Assembly (NCBI GenBank): GCA_947628345.1
Contig: CANQZM010000008.1
Coordinates: forward strand, 1 to 37,761
DNA: 37,761 bases
Source: an uncultured Bacilli bacterium
GTDB taxonomy: Bacteria > Bacillota_I > Bacilli_A > RF39 > UBA660
Reading direction: 5' to 3'
The notes beneath the pieces were generated by a model, which had not been told where the DNA came from, did no database searches, and saw only the letters and a list, made by a program, of their open reading frames with translations. The first letter of the stretch is position 1. Each line of letters opens with the position of its first letter. A program made the translations under genes and the position numbers. Positions 3,481 through 33,551 of the stretch are shown here, piece by piece.

Positions 3481-5583
3481 TTACAATTTTCTTACTATTG
3501 CAAAATCAATTATTTTTTCTTCTTTATCAGCTCTGATAACTTTTATTATTACTTTATCACCAATGGTATATTTTATATGACTTTTTTCGCCTGTCAATGT
3601 CATATTTTCTTCATTATAGTTAAAGAAATCATCCATATCTCTTAATGGTACTAAGCCTTCAACTAAATTATCTAGTTCTACAAACATACCAAAAGATGTT
3701 ATTGAAGTAATCATACCTTCAAATTCTTCACCAATATGAGCCTTCATATATTCAGCCATCTTCATGTCTTCGACTTCTCTTTCACATTCGACAGATGCTC
3801 TTTCACGTTCAGAGGAATGTTCAGTTACATAAATTAGTTTTTCTTCCCAATGCTTTAATGTATTTGAATCTAAATTCTTATTAAATAAGTATGTTCTAAG
3901 TAGACGATGTACAGTAGTATCTGGATAACGTCTTATTGGAGAAGTAAAATGAGTATAACATTTACTAGCTAAACCATAATGTCCTAAATTTTCAGGTTTA
4001 TATACAGCCTTTTGCATACTTCTTAATAATAAACTAGATAATATTTTATATTCAGGTTTATCCTTTAAGGACACAATTAATTGCTGCATCGACTTAGGAG
4101 TAAAATCTTTGATATTACCAGCTACTTGATAGCCTAATGTTCCTATAAAAGATAAATAATTTCTGATTTTTTCTTCTTTTGGCATTTCATGAACTCTATA
4201 AACAAAAGGCAGATTCATATAATAAATATGTGTTGCAACACACTCATTAGCAGCAATCATAAAGTCTTCAATTAAAAGTTCTCCAGCTCCTCTATTTCTT
4301 TTTACTATTTCTGTTGGAACACAATTTTCATCTACTAAAATTTTAGCTTCATCGATTTCAAAATCAATATAACCACGATTGATTTTCATTTTTCTTAATA
4401 TTTTGGCTAGTTCATACATTTGTTGCAAAGGTTCAATATATGGTTCATAACCTTCAACAACTTCATTGTTTTCTAAAATTCGATTAACTTTATTATAAGT
4501 CATTTGAATACGTGATTTAATAACACTAGGGAAAATATCATAGCTAATTTGATTACCCTTATTATCAAACTCCATTACACAAGATATTGTTAATCGATCA
4601 ACATTTGGATTCAAAGAACAAATACCATTAGATAACTCATGAGGTAACATTGGAATAACTCTATCTACCAAATATACACTAGTACCTCGTTCCATTGCTT
4701 CAACATCTAGTGGTGATGATTCTTTTACGTAATAAGAAACATCTGCAATATGAACTCCCAATTGATAATTGCCATTTTCTAATTTTTTAATAGATATAGC
4801 ATCATCAATATCCTTGGTATCATCACCATCAATTGTAAAAATAACCTCATCTCTTAAATCTATTCTATCTTTTAAATCTTCTTCATAAACTTGCATAGGC
4901 ATGTGTTTTACTTGATCTTTTACTTCATCTAAAAATTCAGTATTAATATTATACTTACGCACAATAGATAAAATATCAACTCCTGGGTCGTTTTTATGAC
5001 CTATGATTTCAACTACTTTACCTTGATATCTATAGTTACTTATTTTCTTACTAAGTTCAACTACAACTTTATGACCATCGACTGCATTTAAAGAATTTTC
5101 TCTTTTCACTTCTATTTCAATTTTTATTTTTTTATCATCTAAGGTAATAATTCCCTTGTCTTTAACGAAATTAATTTCCCCAATATATTTAGAAATAGCT
5201 CTTTTAACAACTTTTAAAACTCGTCCTTCTAGACGATCTAGATTCATTTTACTGGTAATTTCTACTATTACCATATCATCATGAATCGCTCCATTCATAT
5301 TGTCCGCACTTACATAAATATCTTCATCTAAGTTTTCAACTGCAACAAAGCCAAAACCTTTCTTATTAACATGCATAATACCTTTTCTTAAGTGACTATT
5401 TTCTAACAACATATATTTATCTTTATTAGTATGATAAATAATAACTTCTTCTTCTAAGTCTTTCAAAACATCTATTAACTGTTTAAGTTCATCTGCGCTT
5501 TTTAAATTTAATTGATCCTGAATATCATATATAGTCATTGCCTCATTGTTATCTTCTAACAATTTTAATACTGATTCTTTCAT
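3481..5583 (-). CDS. rnr: Ribonuclease R
   Basis: This is a processive 3'-5' exoribonuclease of the RNB family that degrades structured RNA and works with tmRNA in clearing nonstop mRNA. Its 700 aa hold an N-terminal helix-turn-helix-like region, two cold-shock domains, the RNB domain with the metal-binding motif DGDDTKDIDDA near residue 250, and a C-terminal S1 domain (about 625-695). Unlike many R enzymes it lacks a long lysine-rich C-terminal tail and stops right after S1. The start ATG is preceded by GAAGGTG. It follows secG after a terminator and precedes smpB. Confidence 0.97.
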   Translation of the reverse strand: MKESVLKLLEDNNEAMTIYDIQDQLNLKSADELKQLIDVLKDLEEEVIIYHTNKDKYMLLENSHLRKGIMHVNKKGFGFVAVENLDEDIYVSADNMNGAIHDDMVIVEITSKMNLDRLEGRVLKVVKRAISKYIGEINFVKDKGIITLDDKKIKIEIEVKRENSLNAVDGHKVVVELSKKISNYRYQGKVVEIIGHKNDPGVDILSIVRKYNINTEFLDEVKDQVKHMPMQVYEEDLKDRIDLRDEVIFTIDGDDTKDIDDAISIKKLENGNYQLGVHIADVSYYVKESSPLDVEAMERGTSVYLVDRVIPMLPHELSNGICSLNPNVDRLTISCVMEFDNKGNQISYDIFPSVIKSRIQMTYNKVNRILENNEVVEGYEPYIEPLQQMYELAKILRKMKINRGYIDFEIDEAKILVDENCVPTEIVKRNRGAGELLIEDFMIAANECVATHIYYMNLPFVYRVHEMPKEEKIRNYLSFIGTLGYQVAGNIKDFTPKSMQQLIVSLKDKPEYKILSSLLLRSMQKAVYKPENLGHYGLASKCYTHFTSPIRRYPDTTVHRLLRTYLFNKNLDSNTLKHWEEKLIYVTEHSSERERASVECEREVEDMKMAEYMKAHIGEEFEGMITSITSFGMFVELDNLVEGLVPLRDMDDFFNYNEENMTLTGEKSHIKYTIGDKVIIKVIRADKEEKIIDFAIVRKL

Positions 5584-27526: not shown

Positions 27527-27561
27527 ATATGGCAATTCAAAAAAGGGGAGAGAAAAACAGT

Positions 27562-28221
27562 ATGTTTGATAAATTAAAAAAACAACTATATTCTACAAAA
27601 TCTACATTGCTAATGAGCCAGGGAATAATTAATAAAAAAATAGTTCCGTTTGATAATAAATTTTATGAAAGAATGGACCATAATTACATTAGTGGAATAC
27701 CCATATCTATGTACATTAAATACTTAAGGCCAATTATGCCTCCAGGTAAATGTCATGATAGAAGTTTGTATATGTTTTTCTGTTTTCCAGAAGCAAAATT
27801 ATGTAGAGGAGATCATAAGGATTTAGCGTTACGATATGGCAAAGAAAACGCTTGTCATGGATGGATAGAAATTGATGATTATGCATATGACCCAGCGCTT
27901 TTAATGAGATTTGATAAAGATTTATATTACCGTATTTATGAGCCTACTAATGTTTCTAAGGCAACACTGTCCGAATATTGTTCTACACCAGAAAGCAAAA
28001 AATTTTATGACGATATAACTAAGCCTACAATATATGATTTACAAACCTCTATTGAAAAAAGAAGTGATTTAATTGTTTCAATACCATTAGTTAAAGGGAT
28101 AGCAGAAATGTCAGGCAATAAAGATTTTATAAGAGAACTTAATGAACATTTAACCTTAATAAATTATGATGAACAGCAAATTTCAAAAGAATTAGATTTA
28201 GCTATAAGAAAGCATCGCTAA
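27562..28221 (+). CDS. Hypothetical protein with a transglutaminase-like Cys-His-Asp core
   Basis: The 219-aa protein is not a known named family to me. It has PPGKCHDRSLYMFF (Cys64), ENACHGWIEID (His99) and YAYDPALL (Asp110), with the spacing and flanks of the transglutaminase/papain-like core: Cys at the start of a helix, then H-x-W on a strand and D-P after a turn. No signal peptide or membrane segment is seen, so it would act in the cytoplasm. The track start at 27529 has no ribosome site; the ATG at 27562 follows AGGGGAG by 12 bases. It is one of two plus-strand genes of length, monocistronic, and ends in a strong terminator. Peptidase, amidase or protein-modifying activity are all possible. 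Confidence 0.7.
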   Translation: MFDKLKKQLYSTKSTLLMSQGIINKKIVPFDNKFYERMDHNYISGIPISMYIKYLRPIMPPGKCHDRSLYMFFCFPEAKLCRGDHKDLALRYGKENACHGWIEIDDYAYDPALLMRFDKDLYYRIYEPTNVSKATLSEYCSTPESKKFYDDITKPTIYDLQTSIEKRSDLIVSIPLVKGIAEMSGNKDFIRELNEHLTLINYDEQQISKELDLAIRKHR

Positions 28222-28252: not shown

Positions 28253-28294
28253 AAAAATACGTATTTCCTTGTATAATAGGACTTACGTATTTTT
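28253..28294. terminator. Bidirectional terminator between the transglutaminase-like and MATE genes
   Basis: AAAAATACGTA ... TACGTATTTTT forms the stem and has U tracts on both strands. The 37 bases 28253-28289 match the hairpin before the MATE gene (29745-29781) in 30 positions and in the same orientation. Confidence 0.8.
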
Positions 28295-28331
28295 ACTGTG
28301 TATTAGTAATAAATTTAATATTTAAAACCAA

Positions 28332-29717
28332 TTATTTTTCAATTTTTCTAAATTCACTCTTCAATAAAATAATTCCTGTTACAAAAGCTAATATATCAGC
28401 AACAATTGCACTCCATAACATTGTCACGACATTATGACTAATGAAGGAAATTAATAAAATTGCTGGAACAAAGAAAATAACATCCCTAGTAAGTGAAAGT
28501 ATCGTTGATTTTAAACTTGATCCCATTGATTGTAACAAAATAGCCATCGATTTAATTAAACAAGTAAAAACAATACCACCTAAAAATATTCTTAAGCAAT
28601 AATTTGCAAATTCTATATATTCTTTAGAATTACCACTACCAAAAATACTAATAATAAATATTGGGAAAAATTCAAATAAAACAAATGCAATAATACCAAT
28701 AATTAGATTTGTTATTAATATATATTTGATAGTTTTTTTTACTCTTTCAATATTGCCCGCACCCATGTTATAGCCAATAATAGGCATTCCACCAAGTGAT
28801 ACACCAATAACAATAGATACAACAATACCAAATACTTTCATGCATATTCCAATAACTGCAAGTGGAGTTACAACTCCATAAGCTACCCCTGAACTGGCTA
28901 TTGTCATATATCCATATTTTTCTACTAAATTATTAGTAACTGCTATTATAATTACAATAGCAATTTGAGTTATTAAAGATGCCAGTCCTAAAGAAACAAT
29001 TTTTTTACATACTTCCTTATCTAATTTAATTGATTCTTTATTTACCTTAAATGATTTTGGTTTCCTAAAGTAATAAATACTTGTTATAAATGTTAAGATT
29101 TGACCAATTATTGTTGCAATGGCAGCTCCTTTAACACTCATATCAAACACAAATATAAATATAGGATCTAAAATAATATTAGAAATAGCACCAATAATAG
29201 TTGCACCCATAGCATACTTTGGGCTTCCGTCACTTCTTATTGAAGCATTTAACCCTTGACCGATAATATAAAATGGTAAACCATAGCATAATATTCTTAA
29301 ATAATCTTTTGCAAAATTATAACATTTTATTTCATTAGGATTCCCACCAAAGATACCTAATATTTGTTTACTAAAAACAATACCAATAATAGTTAAAATA
29401 ATAGAAACAAATATCAAAAGTATTAATCCATTACCTATCGATTTATTAGCTTTTTCTTTAGCTTGTGCTCCTAACGATAAATTAAATAGCGCAGCTGAAC
29501 CATCACCAATCAATAAAGCAAAAGCAAGAGATATTACTGTAAATGGATAAACAATATTAGTTGCGGCATTTCCATATGCTCCTGCATCACTCCAACCTAT
29601 AAATATTTGATCAACAATATTATATAAAGCCGCCACAATCATACTAATTACACATGGTATAGCAAATTTTTTAATCAATTTAACAATTGGTTCTTTCTTT
29701 AAATCTAATTCTTTCAT
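28332..29717 (-). CDS. MATE family efflux transporter
   Basis: The 461-aa protein has twelve hydrophobic segments in two similar halves, with the MATE marks IPCVISMIVAALYNIVDQIFIG near the N-terminus, a GLNASIRSDGSPKYAM segment in the first half, and MPIIGYNMGAGNIERVKK in the second. These exporters expel cationic drugs and metabolites against Na+ or H+. The track starts at 29756; the ATG at 29717 (MKELDLKKEPI) lies seven bases after GGAGG and is the better start. The leader holds a strong terminator hairpin and an upstream -10 box. The neighbouring DUF2798 gene has a similar leader. Confidence 0.93.
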   Translation of the reverse strand: MKELDLKKEPIVKLIKKFAIPCVISMIVAALYNIVDQIFIGWSDAGAYGNAATNIVYPFTVISLAFALLIGDGSAALFNLSLGAQAKEKANKSIGNGLILLIFVSIILTIIGIVFSKQILGIFGGNPNEIKCYNFAKDYLRILCYGLPFYIIGQGLNASIRSDGSPKYAMGATIIGAISNIILDPIFIFVFDMSVKGAAIATIIGQILTFITSIYYFRKPKSFKVNKESIKLDKEVCKKIVSLGLASLITQIAIVIIIAVTNNLVEKYGYMTIASSGVAYGVVTPLAVIGICMKVFGIVVSIVIGVSLGGMPIIGYNMGAGNIERVKKTIKYILITNLIIGIIAFVLFEFFPIFIISIFGSGNSKEYIEFANYCLRIFLGGIVFTCLIKSMAILLQSMGSSLKSTILSLTRDVIFFVPAILLISFISHNVVTMLWSAIVADILAFVTGIILLKSEFRKIEK

Positions 29718-29744
29718 AAACATACCTCCATCTTTTTTGAGCAC

Positions 29745-29781
29745 AAAAATACGCAAGTCCTAATACAATTGGACTTACGCA
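29745..29781 (-). terminator. Terminator/attenuator hairpin in the MATE leader
   Basis: TGCGTAAGTCC pairs with GGACTTGCGTA over a 10-base loop and is followed by TTTTTG on the minus strand. It lies between the promoter (-10 at 29836-29841) and the MATE start. A transcript from this promoter would end here unless an antiterminator forms. Tiny ORFs in the leader (MFRRKY*, MSSNYA*) lack ribosome sites. Confidence 0.75.
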
Positions 29782-29835
29782 TAATTGCTACTCATTGTGA
29801 TTTATTGACTTAGTACTTTCTTCTAAACATAACTA

Positions 29836-29841
29836 ATTATA
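29836..29841 (-). promoter_or_regulatory. Extended -10 promoter of the MATE gene
   Basis: TGATATAATTAGT on the minus strand is an extended -10 without a good -35. The same TATAATTAGT occurs in the DUF2798 promoter. The predicted leader is about 112 bases. Confidence 0.55.
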
Positions 29842-29873
29842 TCACAAATTTCTTTTTTACATAATAAAAATTA

Positions 29874-30425
29874 TTATTTGCTCTCTTGTTTTCTTTTAAA
29901 TATTGTCTTAAATGTTTGTCTTACAAATGGTTGAATAAAGAATAATTGAGAAAAATATGCAAATGGAAAATTAAAACAAATTAGTTTTAACCAATTAGCT
30001 AACAGAGTAAGCATATTAAATCCCATATAGTAAGGATAATATAACCAAGCTGCTATAAAACTCATCACAGGTACCATTATTCCTACAGTAGCACATATTA
30101 TAGCTGTTTCAAAATGTATTGGATCAGTTTTCTTGATGTTAAAATTCTTACATGCCATTTTGAAAGAGAAGGGTTGTCCTATTAGCATTTCGGCTAAATA
30201 GGCAAAACAAAATTCTACTAAAACAACTGCCCATATGGGAAAATAACAACCAAACATATAAACGCCACCAAGATTATTAATAGCTTTTATTACACTATTA
30301 GCTCCAGTTAAATTCATAAGTGTTGTTCCATTTACAACATACAAACTATAAAATACATAAGCGTGAACTGTAATAATTACGGTAATTAAAGCAAATAAAG
30401 CTCTTTCTTTTTTATTTGTTGGCAT
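29874..30425 (-). CDS. DUF2798 family integral membrane protein
   Basis: The 183-aa protein has four hydrophobic segments (about residues 9-30, 58-80, 106-130 and 138-165) with lysine-rich ends. The start MPTNKKERALFALI and the two similar halves with a short amphipathic link are typical of DUF2798 proteins, whose biochemical role is unknown; many sit next to drug or stress genes. AGGAGG lies upstream of the ATG. It precedes the MATE gene by about 160 bases and has its own promoter and a structured leader of about 116 bases ending in a U-rich terminator. Confidence 0.85.
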   Translation of the reverse strand: MPTNKKERALFALITVIITVHAYVFYSLYVVNGTTLMNLTGANSVIKAINNLGGVYMFGCYFPIWAVVLVEFCFAYLAEMLIGQPFSFKMACKNFNIKKTDPIHFETAIICATVGIMVPVMSFIAAWLYYPYYMGFNMLTLLANWLKLICFNFPFAYFSQLFFIQPFVRQTFKTIFKRKQESK

Positions 30426-30449
30426 AAACTTTCACCTCCTATTTTGCAC

Positions 30450-30528
30450 AAAAAAACACACATAGAAACTATCACATTATTCCAAATACATCTCTGTAAT
30501 CAGATTTACGTGCATAGCACTACGTGTG
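30450..30528 (-). promoter_or_regulatory. Terminator-containing leader of the DUF2798 gene
   Basis: On the minus strand CACACGTAG (30528-30520) can pair with CTATGTGTG (30465-30457), right before seven U, forming a terminator. The same first arm takes part in a local hairpin ACGTAGTGC-tat-GCACGT (30525-30508), which would exclude the terminator. A further ATCT/AGAT hairpin lies between. The layout fits attenuation; the signal is not identifiable. Confidence 0.5.
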
Positions 30529-30547
30529 TCAAATGTATTGCTTACTA

Positions 30548-30553
30548 ATTATA
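30548..30553 (-). promoter_or_regulatory. Extended -10 promoter of the DUF2798 gene
   Basis: TGGTATAATTAGT on the minus strand is an extended -10 with no clear -35. The start is expected near 30541. Confidence 0.55.
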
Positions 30554-30886: not shown

Positions 30887-32593
30887 TTAATGAATCAACT
30901 CTTTATATGTGTCACTATTTTTTATTAAATCTTTATGTTCTCCTATACAATCAATTTTACCATTTTTTAAAACGACAAGATTATCGGCAGCTTTCATTAA
31001 TTCTTTATTATGAGTGATAATTATTAGAGTGTGGTCTGTTTTTAAATCCTCCAATAAATTTATTATCTTACTAGTTGTATTTGGATCTAAAGAAGAAGTA
31101 ACTTCATCTAATAATATTATCTCAGAAGTTGTAAGAAGTGCTCTAGCTAAAGATAATAATTGTTTTTGACCTCCACTTATATTGTAAGCATCTTCTTTTA
31201 AAATTGTATTATATCCATCCGGCAATGACATTATAAAATCATGAATTCCAACTCTCTTACAAGCATCAATTTGTCTTTTTTTATTAGAATCTATCAACGA
31301 TAAATTAGCCCTAATGCTCATATCAAAAATAAAAGTTTTTTGATTTACAATACTAATATTTGAGTAATAAACATCTTTTGAATACTCATAAATGTTTAAG
31401 TTATCAATCAATATTTTTCCACTATCTATTTTATATAATCTTAAAAGAAGATTAAATATTGTGGTTTTTCCTGCCCCAGTTTGACCAACAATTGTCGTTA
31501 TTTGATTGGGTTTAGCTACAAATGAAATATTATTTAATGTTAATATTTCATTATATTTAAAAGACACATTTTTAAATTCAACAAGTCCACTAATATCATC
31601 ATTATTAACTGTTCCATCAAGTTTTAAAGATTTATTTTTATAATTAATTATTTCATTAATTCTATATAATGAAACAGACTCCTCTCTAATAGATACATCA
31701 AAGCCCATTATATCATTGATTGAATCTTTGGCTTTATCATAGTAAGAAATTAATAACAAAAATATTGAAATTTTTAATTTATTTTTCATAAGAAAGGAAA
31801 TTAAAATAATATATAAAAATATTTTACCAAAATCAATAATTAAACTTAATATAGTTTTTCTAGTAAAAAAGTATTTTCTTTTTAAAAAATAACTTTCCTT
31901 CCACCTTTTTCTATAACCGTCCAATTTATTATTTAGTTTATCTCCAAGACCAAAACTTTTAATATCTTTAAGACCTATTAAAATCTGTTGCAATATTCCT
32001 GTTATTTTATCAGCATAATGTATTTGCTTTTTTAAATAATGAGTATTTTTATCATTACATTTTTTAGCTAAATTATAATATATTATATCTATTATAATTA
32101 CATATAAGGCAACTAAAATACTTTGTTTTACAAAAACAAAATATATAATAAATAATTTTATAAATTCAATAGATAATTCTATTATAAAAGAAGGAACCTC
32201 CGCAATATTAATAATGTCTGTATTTGATGAATTTATAATTTTTCCTGTAGATATCTTTTTAGAATATTCTTCATCATAATTATAGATACTATTTACTAAA
32301 GTATTATGAACATCTACATAGGTTTCCTTAAAAAAGTTAGCATAACACCAATTGGTACAATATGATCCTACTTTATTAACTAAATATGTTATTCCTAGCA
32401 TAATAACAAAAAAAAGAGACATATAATAAAGTTTATTGGTTAGGTTTTCTACTATCAATGATGCAAAAAGTGGTACTAATAAACTTATCAATACATTAAT
32501 TAAATCAACTATTATAAATGCTATTAGATATTTATTTTTAAATTTTACTAAAGAAAAATAATCTTTTGTAATTTTAATATTTCTTATAAACAT
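30887..32593 (-). CDS. ABC half-transporter, exporter type (TMD-NBD fusion)
   Basis: The 568-aa protein has an N-terminal membrane domain of about six helices (residues 25-300) and a C-terminal ATPase with VGQTGAGKTT (Walker A), ISGGQKQLLSLARALL (signature), EIILLDEVTSSLD (Walker B) and the H-loop ITHN. It should act as a homodimer exporting a lipid, drug or peptide; there is no peptidase domain. The track starts at TTG; the ATG at 32593 (MFIRNIKI) after GGTG is preferred. It is the last gene of an operon with a methyltransferase and an AraC-type regulator. Confidence 0.93.
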   Translation of the reverse strand: MFIRNIKITKDYFSLVKFKNKYLIAFIIVDLINVLISLLVPLFASLIVENLTNKLYYMSLFFVIMLGITYLVNKVGSYCTNWCYANFFKETYVDVHNTLVNSIYNYDEEYSKKISTGKIINSSNTDIINIAEVPSFIIELSIEFIKLFIIYFVFVKQSILVALYVIIIDIIYYNLAKKCNDKNTHYLKKQIHYADKITGILQQILIGLKDIKSFGLGDKLNNKLDGYRKRWKESYFLKRKYFFTRKTILSLIIDFGKIFLYIILISFLMKNKLKISIFLLLISYYDKAKDSINDIMGFDVSIREESVSLYRINEIINYKNKSLKLDGTVNNDDISGLVEFKNVSFKYNEILTLNNISFVAKPNQITTIVGQTGAGKTTIFNLLLRLYKIDSGKILIDNLNIYEYSKDVYYSNISIVNQKTFIFDMSIRANLSLIDSNKKRQIDACKRVGIHDFIMSLPDGYNTILKEDAYNISGGQKQLLSLARALLTTSEIILLDEVTSSLDPNTTSKIINLLEDLKTDHTLIIITHNKELMKAADNLVVLKNGKIDCIGEHKDLIKNSDTYKELIH

Positions 32594-32666
32594 ATACTTC
32601 ACCAATATAAGTATAGAATACTAAAAGGTATATTTCTTTACATTTCAAATATTAAAATTGTTAAGA

Positions 32667-33458
32667 TTATTTGATAGGTAAATATATATAACAACAATTA
32701 TCTTTGTATAATTCTATTTTAAGGTTGCTTTTTATATTATAATTAGTAGAAGGTATCCATTGCTTATTTATTTTTTCTTCTAAATCTACTATATCTTTCT
32801 GATCTTTTGATATTAACTTAAATATTACATATTTATTTTTATCTATTACGTATTTTTCTAAATTTGGATAACTTTCTGTTGAACCTAAGTAATAATGATA
32901 TAATCCATTATCTTTAGAAAAAATTCCATACATCCCTGTTTCATTAAATTTTTTATAATAGCCATTTGTTTTAACTTTTTTGTATAATTGTCTTATTTTA
33001 TATAATAAATCTGAATGCTTTTTTGCAGTAATATGATAACAATATAAAGATAAAGTCTCTAATTTTTTTATTTCATAATCAAAGTTATAATCTTTTTTCA
33101 TGTATTCAAAATTTACTATAGGTATTATTTTATATTTTCCTAACCCTTTTCTACATCCAGTTGGTGTTATATCAAATAATTGTTTAAATGCTCTATTAAA
33201 GGAGGAAGCGGAATTATATTGGTATTTAAAAGCAATATCTATTATTTTTAAATTCGTATTTCTTATTTCTTCAAATGCTTTACTTAATCTTCTTTTTTTT
33301 ATATATTCAATGATTGTCATATCTGTTAAAAACATAAAAATTCTTTCAAGAATAAATATATTAGTATTAGTTATTTTACTTAATTCACTATAATCAATTT
33401 CAGTATCTAGATTTTTTTCAATATATTCGGTCATTTTATTTAAATTATCAAAATTCAT
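32667..33458 (-). CDS. AraC-family regulator with a C-terminal effector domain
   Basis: The 263-aa protein begins with a double helix-turn-helix AraC DNA-binding domain (residues 1-105), including IDYSELSKITNTNIFILERIF and the second motif IIDIAFKYQYNSASSFNRAFKQLFDITP. The rest (about 120-263) has the size and strand pattern of GyrI-like small-molecule-binding domains found in Rob and BmrR-type drug regulators. The start at 33458 (MNFDNLNKM) follows AGGAGG; the track start is 14 codons too early. It lies between the methyltransferase and ABC genes and probably controls the operon in response to a ligand. Confidence 0.9.
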   Translation of the reverse strand: MNFDNLNKMTEYIEKNLDTEIDYSELSKITNTNIFILERIFMFLTDMTIIEYIKKRRLSKAFEEIRNTNLKIIDIAFKYQYNSASSFNRAFKQLFDITPTGCRKGLGKYKIIPIVNFEYMKKDYNFDYEIKKLETLSLYCYHITAKKHSDLLYKIRQLYKKVKTNGYYKKFNETGMYGIFSKDNGLYHYYLGSTESYPNLEKYVIDKNKYVIFKLISKDQKDIVDLEEKINKQWIPSTNYNIKSNLKIELYKDNCCYIYLPIK

Positions 33459-33551
33459 TAAACAAAACCTCCTACTTTTTAAATTTACTAATGCTCCCAT
33501 TGATAAATATTACCTTATTCCATTATAATTACATATTAAATAAAACTATAT

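Follow-up and report, generated by a model that had tools for sequence, protein, structure and literature searches.

Among the described leader RNAs, the guanidine-IV riboswitch (mepA or GGAM-1 motif) and its orphan variant Gd4v come closest to what we report here. According to two published accounts (PMC7736828, PMC9788692), a conserved strand forms a pseudoknot with the loop of the terminator hairpin, MATE genes are found downstream, the carriers are gut bacteria and the essential residues of guanidine-IV, conserved G and U, are reported in the second loop. The commonest gene is reported to be sugE for guanidine-IV and a transaminase for Gd4v. Guanidine-I (ykkC, RF00442) is also a riboswitch on small drug and guanidine exporters. 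The HMP-PP (thiS) riboswitch (PMC6478431) is a compact aptamer which shares strands with an intrinsic terminator, and the vmlR and msrD leader-peptide attenuators (PMC9226507, PMC10314930) act by premature termination before resistance and export genes.

We analyzed the leaders of two genes in the window, that is, the whole stretch of 37,761 nucleotides, and find that they carry two different motifs, M1 before a gene for a DUF2798-like membrane protein and M2 before a gene for a MATE exporter. Both resemble the HMP-PP riboswitch in their compact plan with strands shared between aptamer and terminator, but the genes controlled are others. Neither matches guanidine-I in sequence or structure, and unlike vmlR and msrD both are without a conserved reading frame or ribosome-binding site. 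M2 is similar to guanidine-IV and Gd4v in plan, genes and habitat, as judged from the published descriptions, and like guanidine-IV it is probably an ON switch which prevents termination. M1 differs from the published plan, as its aptamer takes the 5′ terminator arm.

With covariance models of Rfam 15 (4227 families), neither M1 nor M2 gave a match at the gathering score; guanidine-I and the other Rfam classes were thus rejected. The same scan found guanidine-I in a control locus (L229). Since no catalogued RNA family matched, the ligands of M1 and M2 are probably chemicals which nobody has identified. An attempt to derive guanidine-IV from sugE leaders failed, SMR genes being nearly absent from the phylum (2 of 245 genomes of the phylum sample) and the plasmid sugE control carrying guanidine-I. 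Plasmid MATE leaders contained neither M1 nor M2.

The locus and its two leaders

The two genes and their promoters are arranged as follows.

28332–29717, minus strand: MATE-family exporter, 461 aa
29832–29844, minus strand: extended −10 promoter of the MATE gene, TGATATAATTAGT
29874–30425, minus strand: DUF2798-like four-helix membrane protein, 183 aa
30544–30556, minus strand: extended −10 promoter of the DUF2798-like gene, TGGTATAATTAGT

The exporter reaches the gathering score of Pfam PF01554 (135.2 bits) and matches TIGR00797 with 185.8 bits. The name DUF2798 was chosen for the other gene in a sequence-only reading of this DNA which preceded our analysis; the window protein itself scores 18.7 bits against PF11391, under the cut-off of 23.5, but 31 of 45 relatives match this domain (best E = 2.8e-6). 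The AlphaFold model is a confident four-helix membrane protein (pLDDT 87). We found a PDB relative neither by fold nor by sequence, and EXPERA matches weakly in 2 of the 45 relatives. In the literature searched we did not find DUF2798 and riboswitches mentioned together.

Upstream of both genes and on the same strand lie an ABC exporter (30887–32605, minus strand) and, adjoining it, an AraC/Rob-like regulator whose effector domain is Cass2/GyrI-like (32667–33500, minus strand). Convergent with the MATE gene is the gene of a 230-aa protein (27529–28221, plus strand) for which a Pfam match is absent even at E = 10.

The −10 regions of both genes share the same ten letters, TGNTATAATTAGT, as had been noticed before. 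The 1.3 Mb assembly has exactly two copies of this string, those at the two promoters; its reversed control pattern is present twice as well, and the relatives have other letters at this place. The shared string is therefore no better than chance and carries little weight, and we ruled it out as evidence for co-regulation.

The leaders extend on the minus strand from 30541 to 30426 (DUF2798-like gene) and from about 29829 to 29718 (MATE gene). The lengths estimated before, about 116 and 112 nt, agree with transcription starting about 7 nt past the −10 region. Both leaders contain a stem and a U tract, again as proposed, and none of 200 shuffles folded as well as the DUF2798 leader (z = −4.0 to −5.2) or the MATE leader (z = −3.2 to −4.5). 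A generic terminator scan detected the terminator of neither leader because of the loop length and the internal hairpins.

The M1 motif

In the leader of the DUF2798-like gene we distinguish these elements.

30478–30552, minus strand: M1 motif, match of covariance model R1 (80.7 bits)
30532–30539, minus strand: 5′ strand of P1, AAUACAUU
30522–30529, minus strand: conserved strand ACACACGU, shared by the aptamer-like core and the terminator, whose 5′ arm it forms
30510–30520, minus strand: P2 hairpin, GUGC-UAU-GCAC
30496–30509, minus strand: conserved strand GUAAAUCUGAUUAC
30485–30492, minus strand: 3′ strand of P1, GAUGUAUU
30450–30465, minus strand: 3′ arm of the terminator, CUAUGUGUGU, and U tract

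The consensus of M1 is CGACACAYGUA – hairpin – GUAAAUCUGAUUACGG, then a variable linker and (A)CAUGUG-U6. The 5′ strand of the aptamer-like core thus doubles as the 5′ arm of an intrinsic terminator.

Protein homologues of the DUF2798-like gene were searched in 291 genomes of the host family. In this approach, which relies on protein homology and assumes no sequence pattern, M1 was seen in the leaders of nearly all relatives examined; it is kept before relatives with only 36–40% protein identity, while upstream of the promoter the DNA shows no relation. Covariance model R1 finds M1 in 30 of the 291 family genomes and in four genomes from other families of the same class, and an exact-pattern scan of the GTDB genomes finds it in at least 119 contig stretches. 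Among the matches listed, the carriers are Lachnospiraceae, Oscillospiraceae, Ruminococcus, Clostridium bovifaecis, C. zeae, Bacilli and Treponema. Viral spread of M1 was considered and rejected, as the lone pattern match on a viral contig is without motif context.

About 116 genes follow M1 among the matches listed: about 80 are DUF2798-like, about 28 code for MATE exporters, three for MFS transporters of the DHA2 type and one for a methyltransferase-like protein. The MATE exporters controlled by M1 are 37–41% identical to the window exporter across most of their length. They are often fused at the C-terminus to a cytidylate-kinase-like domain (PF13189; 6e-42 for the protein of L103, 4795–6771). 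Where M1 precedes a DUF2798-like gene, a MATE gene is the only recurrent second gene which suggests a shared function.

Pairing was evaluated on 140 distinct copies of M1, mostly from metagenome-assembled genomes. Pairs 2–4 of P2 are paired in all 140 copies with many compensatory changes (UA 75, CG 41, AU 21; GC 103, AU 35; CG 123, UA 13, AU 3). In the covariance-model alignment 96.4% of the cells are paired, a share which drops to 66% or less when the structure is slid, and covariation scores 0.54 versus 0.22 ± 0.01 after shuffling. The support for P1 is moderate, with a register that varies across the copies: the outer P1 scores 10.9 versus 9.47 ± 0.20 for permuted partners, a distance of seven standard deviations. 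At the base of P1, C-G (105 copies) alternates with U-A (22 copies) beside an invariant G-C. The base 3′ of P2 tracks this pair, being G with C-G and A with U-A (100 and 19 copies), and may form a base triple with it. The single strands of the internal loop are almost invariant; in the copies derived from the exact pattern the conserved letters are partly fixed by the search pattern itself.

A U tract follows 12–95 nt past the core in 139 of 140 copies, and in 84% of the copies the 5′ strand pairs with at least 6 bp to the sequence just before this tract (pairing score of the arms 16.3 versus 9.1 ± 0.2 shuffled). The one variable position of the 5′ arm covaries with the 3′ arm (U-A 68, C-G 28, U-G 16, A-U 1). 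Full leaders fold with the terminator arms paired in 128 of 139 cases; in shortened leaders P2 alone is predicted in only 57 of 139. When growing transcripts of the window leader are folded, P1 with P2 is the minimum energy structure at 56–62 nt, and the terminator takes its place once 80 nt are reached. The U tract, the pairing of the arms, the covarying position and the folds of the growing transcripts taken together make it well supported that the terminator and the core fold exclude each other, in agreement with the two exclusive structures proposed earlier for this leader.

In many copies (among them L098, L123 and L172) the strand 5′ of CGACAC has a further possible partner in the bases just past the U tract, for example AACGCAAA with UUUGCGUU. 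Such pairing would lengthen the terminator helix beyond the U tract.

The M2 motif and its relation to M1

The MATE leader is organized differently, and R1 gives no match to it.

29745–29832, minus strand: M2 motif, match of covariance models R2 and R3 (R3: 29745–29803)
29787–29797, minus strand: conserved strand CAAUGAGUAGC, whose CAAU is complementary to AUUG in the terminator loop (possible pseudoknot, recognized by eye)
29779–29788, minus strand: hairpin GCA-AUUA-UGC, whose 3′ strand overlaps the terminator
29745–29782, minus strand: terminator, AUGCGUAAGUCC..GGACUUGCGUAUUUUU
28253–28311, minus strand: degenerate M2-like hairpin (36.9 bits), 3′ of the MATE gene

M2 is kept in 23 further MATE orthologues with 74–85% identity, the majority of which lack an immediately preceding DUF2798 gene. 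Together with the window copy these 24 sequences give the consensus CAAUGAGUAGC – UGCGUAAGUCCAAUUG – GGACUUACGU-U5; a paralogous MATE clade (about 47%) has the leader AAGUCNNAUCCAGC – UGCGUAAAAACAAGAC – GUUUUUACGU-U7. In a broad alignment the terminator shows 98.2% paired cells and a covariation of 0.46 versus 0.21 shuffled. The small hairpin is paired to 93.3%, with compensatory changes in the columns which it has in common with the terminator. Because these columns are shared and both structures covary, the two folds are mutually exclusive. The MATE leader thus likewise has two exclusive structures, which the sequence-only reading had missed. By eye, a possible pseudoknot in which the 5′ strand pairs with the terminator loop can be recognized in most of the sequences inspected, with pairings such as CAAU-AUUG, GUCU-AGAC and UCAAU-GUUGA.

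M2 is present in 34 of 213 family genomes and also precedes MATE genes in other families. Elsewhere it controls other genes. It stands before an ABC exporter pair in the Lachnospiraceae locus L103, divergent from an M1-MATE gene, so that a single intergenic region (4508–4731) holds M2 with the two ABC genes and M1 with the MATE gene back to back. In the genomes G015, G016, G130 and G196 it stands before a CarD-like gene. The CarD/CdnL-like gene follows M2 at the loci L250, L252, L242 and L258, with PF02559 over the cut-off in the L252 copy; its product is a regulator which binds RNA polymerase and not an exporter.

The degenerate hairpin lies directly 3′ of the window MATE gene and shares 76% identity with the leader hairpin across 45 nt; the gene thus stands between two similar palindromes. 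The downstream one probably serves now as a terminator between the convergent genes.

M1 and M2 are two distinct riboswitch-like attenuators and not the twin copies which had been suggested from the sequence. Their conserved sequences differ, and so does the design of the terminator: in M1 the 5′ strand provides a terminator arm and in M2 the 3′ strand. From these differences it follows that a common signal for both genes, also proposed, cannot be deduced. What stands of that proposal is that both leaders are conserved transcription attenuators, as judged by conservation, covariation and terminator. Unpaired evolution of the stems in relatives had been named beforehand as the outcome which would speak against it, and in the relatives the stems covary instead.

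Besides the window, DUF2798 and MATE genes stand next to each other in G113, G017 and G143, in several Clostridia (L078, L113, L148) and in Treponema (L119, L157). M1-DUF2798 precedes M2-MATE both in the window and in G113, and with less similar MATE proteins in the three Clostridia loci; G143 and G093 have both motifs in the neighbourhood. The succession of the two genes with M1 and M2 is a conserved arrangement of two different switches. A link of both gene types to export is supported by the recurrence of these neighbourhoods across phyla and by the presence of M1 before MATE and MFS genes elsewhere. The recurrence of MATE genes beside M1-DUF2798 supports the earlier idea of an export or resistance partner as far as the context is concerned; that the DUF2798-like protein itself takes part in export we infer from genomic context.

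Both motifs have in common the succession GUA – hairpin – GUAARUC. When M2 cores were scored with the M1 profile, only L141 and L103 stood out (0 of 300 and 1% of shuffles, respectively). As all other M2 cores fail this test, homology between M1 and M2 is a suggestion at most. It is conceivable, if rather doubtful, that M1 and M2 are branches of one undescribed superfamily which use opposite terminator arms and respond to one or two related toxic gut molecules, with the DUF2798-like protein as a new transporter or detoxification partner. Such a superfamily, if real, would be common in gut Firmicutes and Treponema.

Proposed switch mechanism and alternatives

Both M1 and M2 are conserved structured leaders with compensatory changes, and in both the expression platform excludes the conserved fold, as in riboswitches. 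Conservation, covariation, exclusive pairings, terminator, consistent 5′ position and gene association are computed from the sequences. We consider it likely that each leader is a separate riboswitch-type attenuator which acts in cis on transcription, and ligand binding by M1 is about equally likely.

We suggest that the M1 switch could proceed in these steps. The nascent RNA would first form P1, the hairpin P2 and the conserved internal loop (ACACAYGUA / GUAAAUCUGAUUA). A bound ligand would keep the 5′ strand CGACACAYGU from pairing with ACRUGUG(UCG), the 3′ arm of the terminator, so that the gene would be read. Without ligand CGACACAYGU would pair with this arm and transcription would stop at the U tract. 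M1 is likely an ON switch, as are other riboswitches in which the 5′ arm of the terminator belongs to the aptamer. In M2 the small hairpin, together with the pseudoknot to the terminator loop, would compete with the terminator because the 3′ strand of this hairpin is the base of the terminator stem. The ligand is probably a toxic or foreign small molecule which is exported by MATE, MFS or ABC pumps.

An assignment of M2, and perhaps M1, to guanidine-IV or Gd4v, with guanidine or a relative as signal, would explain the plan of M2, its MATE genes and its occurrence in gut bacteria, a likeness judged from the published descriptions (PMC7736828, PMC9788692). However, the conserved GUAAGUCC of M2 is paired in the terminator stem, whereas the residues reported to be essential in guanidine-IV lie in the second loop and their numbers find no clear fit in the M2 loop; the small hairpin of M2 overlaps the base of the stem. 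The plan of M1 is different, sugE, transaminase and PnuC genes do not occur among the about 116 genes downstream of M1 (matches listed), and the scarcity of SMR genes in the phylum noted above also argues against this assignment, which we regard as unlikely.

It is still less probable that an RNA-binding antiterminator protein, LicT/ANTAR-like or another factor, binds the leaders in place of a small molecule. Conserved hairpins which overlap a terminator are also typical of antiterminator targets, and a protein site would fit the conservation in 140 copies. However, what is conserved in M1 is a large internal loop whose single strands are almost invariant, and not a simple RAT or ANTAR hairpin pair; no gene for an RNA-binding protein travels with M1, MATE being the sole recurrent second gene, and M1 spans Bacilli, Clostridia and Treponema among the matches listed.

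In ribosome-mediated attenuation a drug-stalled ribosome on a leader peptide would block the terminator. An AUG with an immediate stop codon is indeed present in 64 of 140 M1 copies, which is under half, and the window M2 has a possible six-codon reading frame. But the AUG is absent in 31 of the 140 M1 copies including the window (ACG), a Shine–Dalgarno-like stretch occurs in only three of 140, the M2 frame is variable or absent between relatives, and it is the RNA pairs that are conserved and not the codons. Without a conserved reading frame and a ribosome-binding site, this mechanism is very unlikely. That the hairpins are ordinary terminators is extremely improbable. The one at the MATE gene would then end the DUF2798 transcript, for which its distance of about 90 nt from the DUF2798 stop codon and the similar hairpin 3′ of the MATE gene could be cited, and the one at the DUF2798 gene would be incidental. 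However, the hairpin at the MATE gene lies downstream of the MATE promoter and stays with MATE genes that have no DUF2798 gene before them, the 3′ ends of DUF2798 relatives without MATE are unrelated, and M1 covaries as a structure.

In summary, we favour two riboswitch-type attenuators in front of a putative export gene pair. It is uncommon for orphan riboswitch candidates to be so widespread and so strongly linked to multidrug exporters. The DUF2798 family, whose function is unknown, gains a testable role, and M1 and M2 offer ready-made sensors for the exported molecule. They point to a small molecule which many gut bacteria must pump out.
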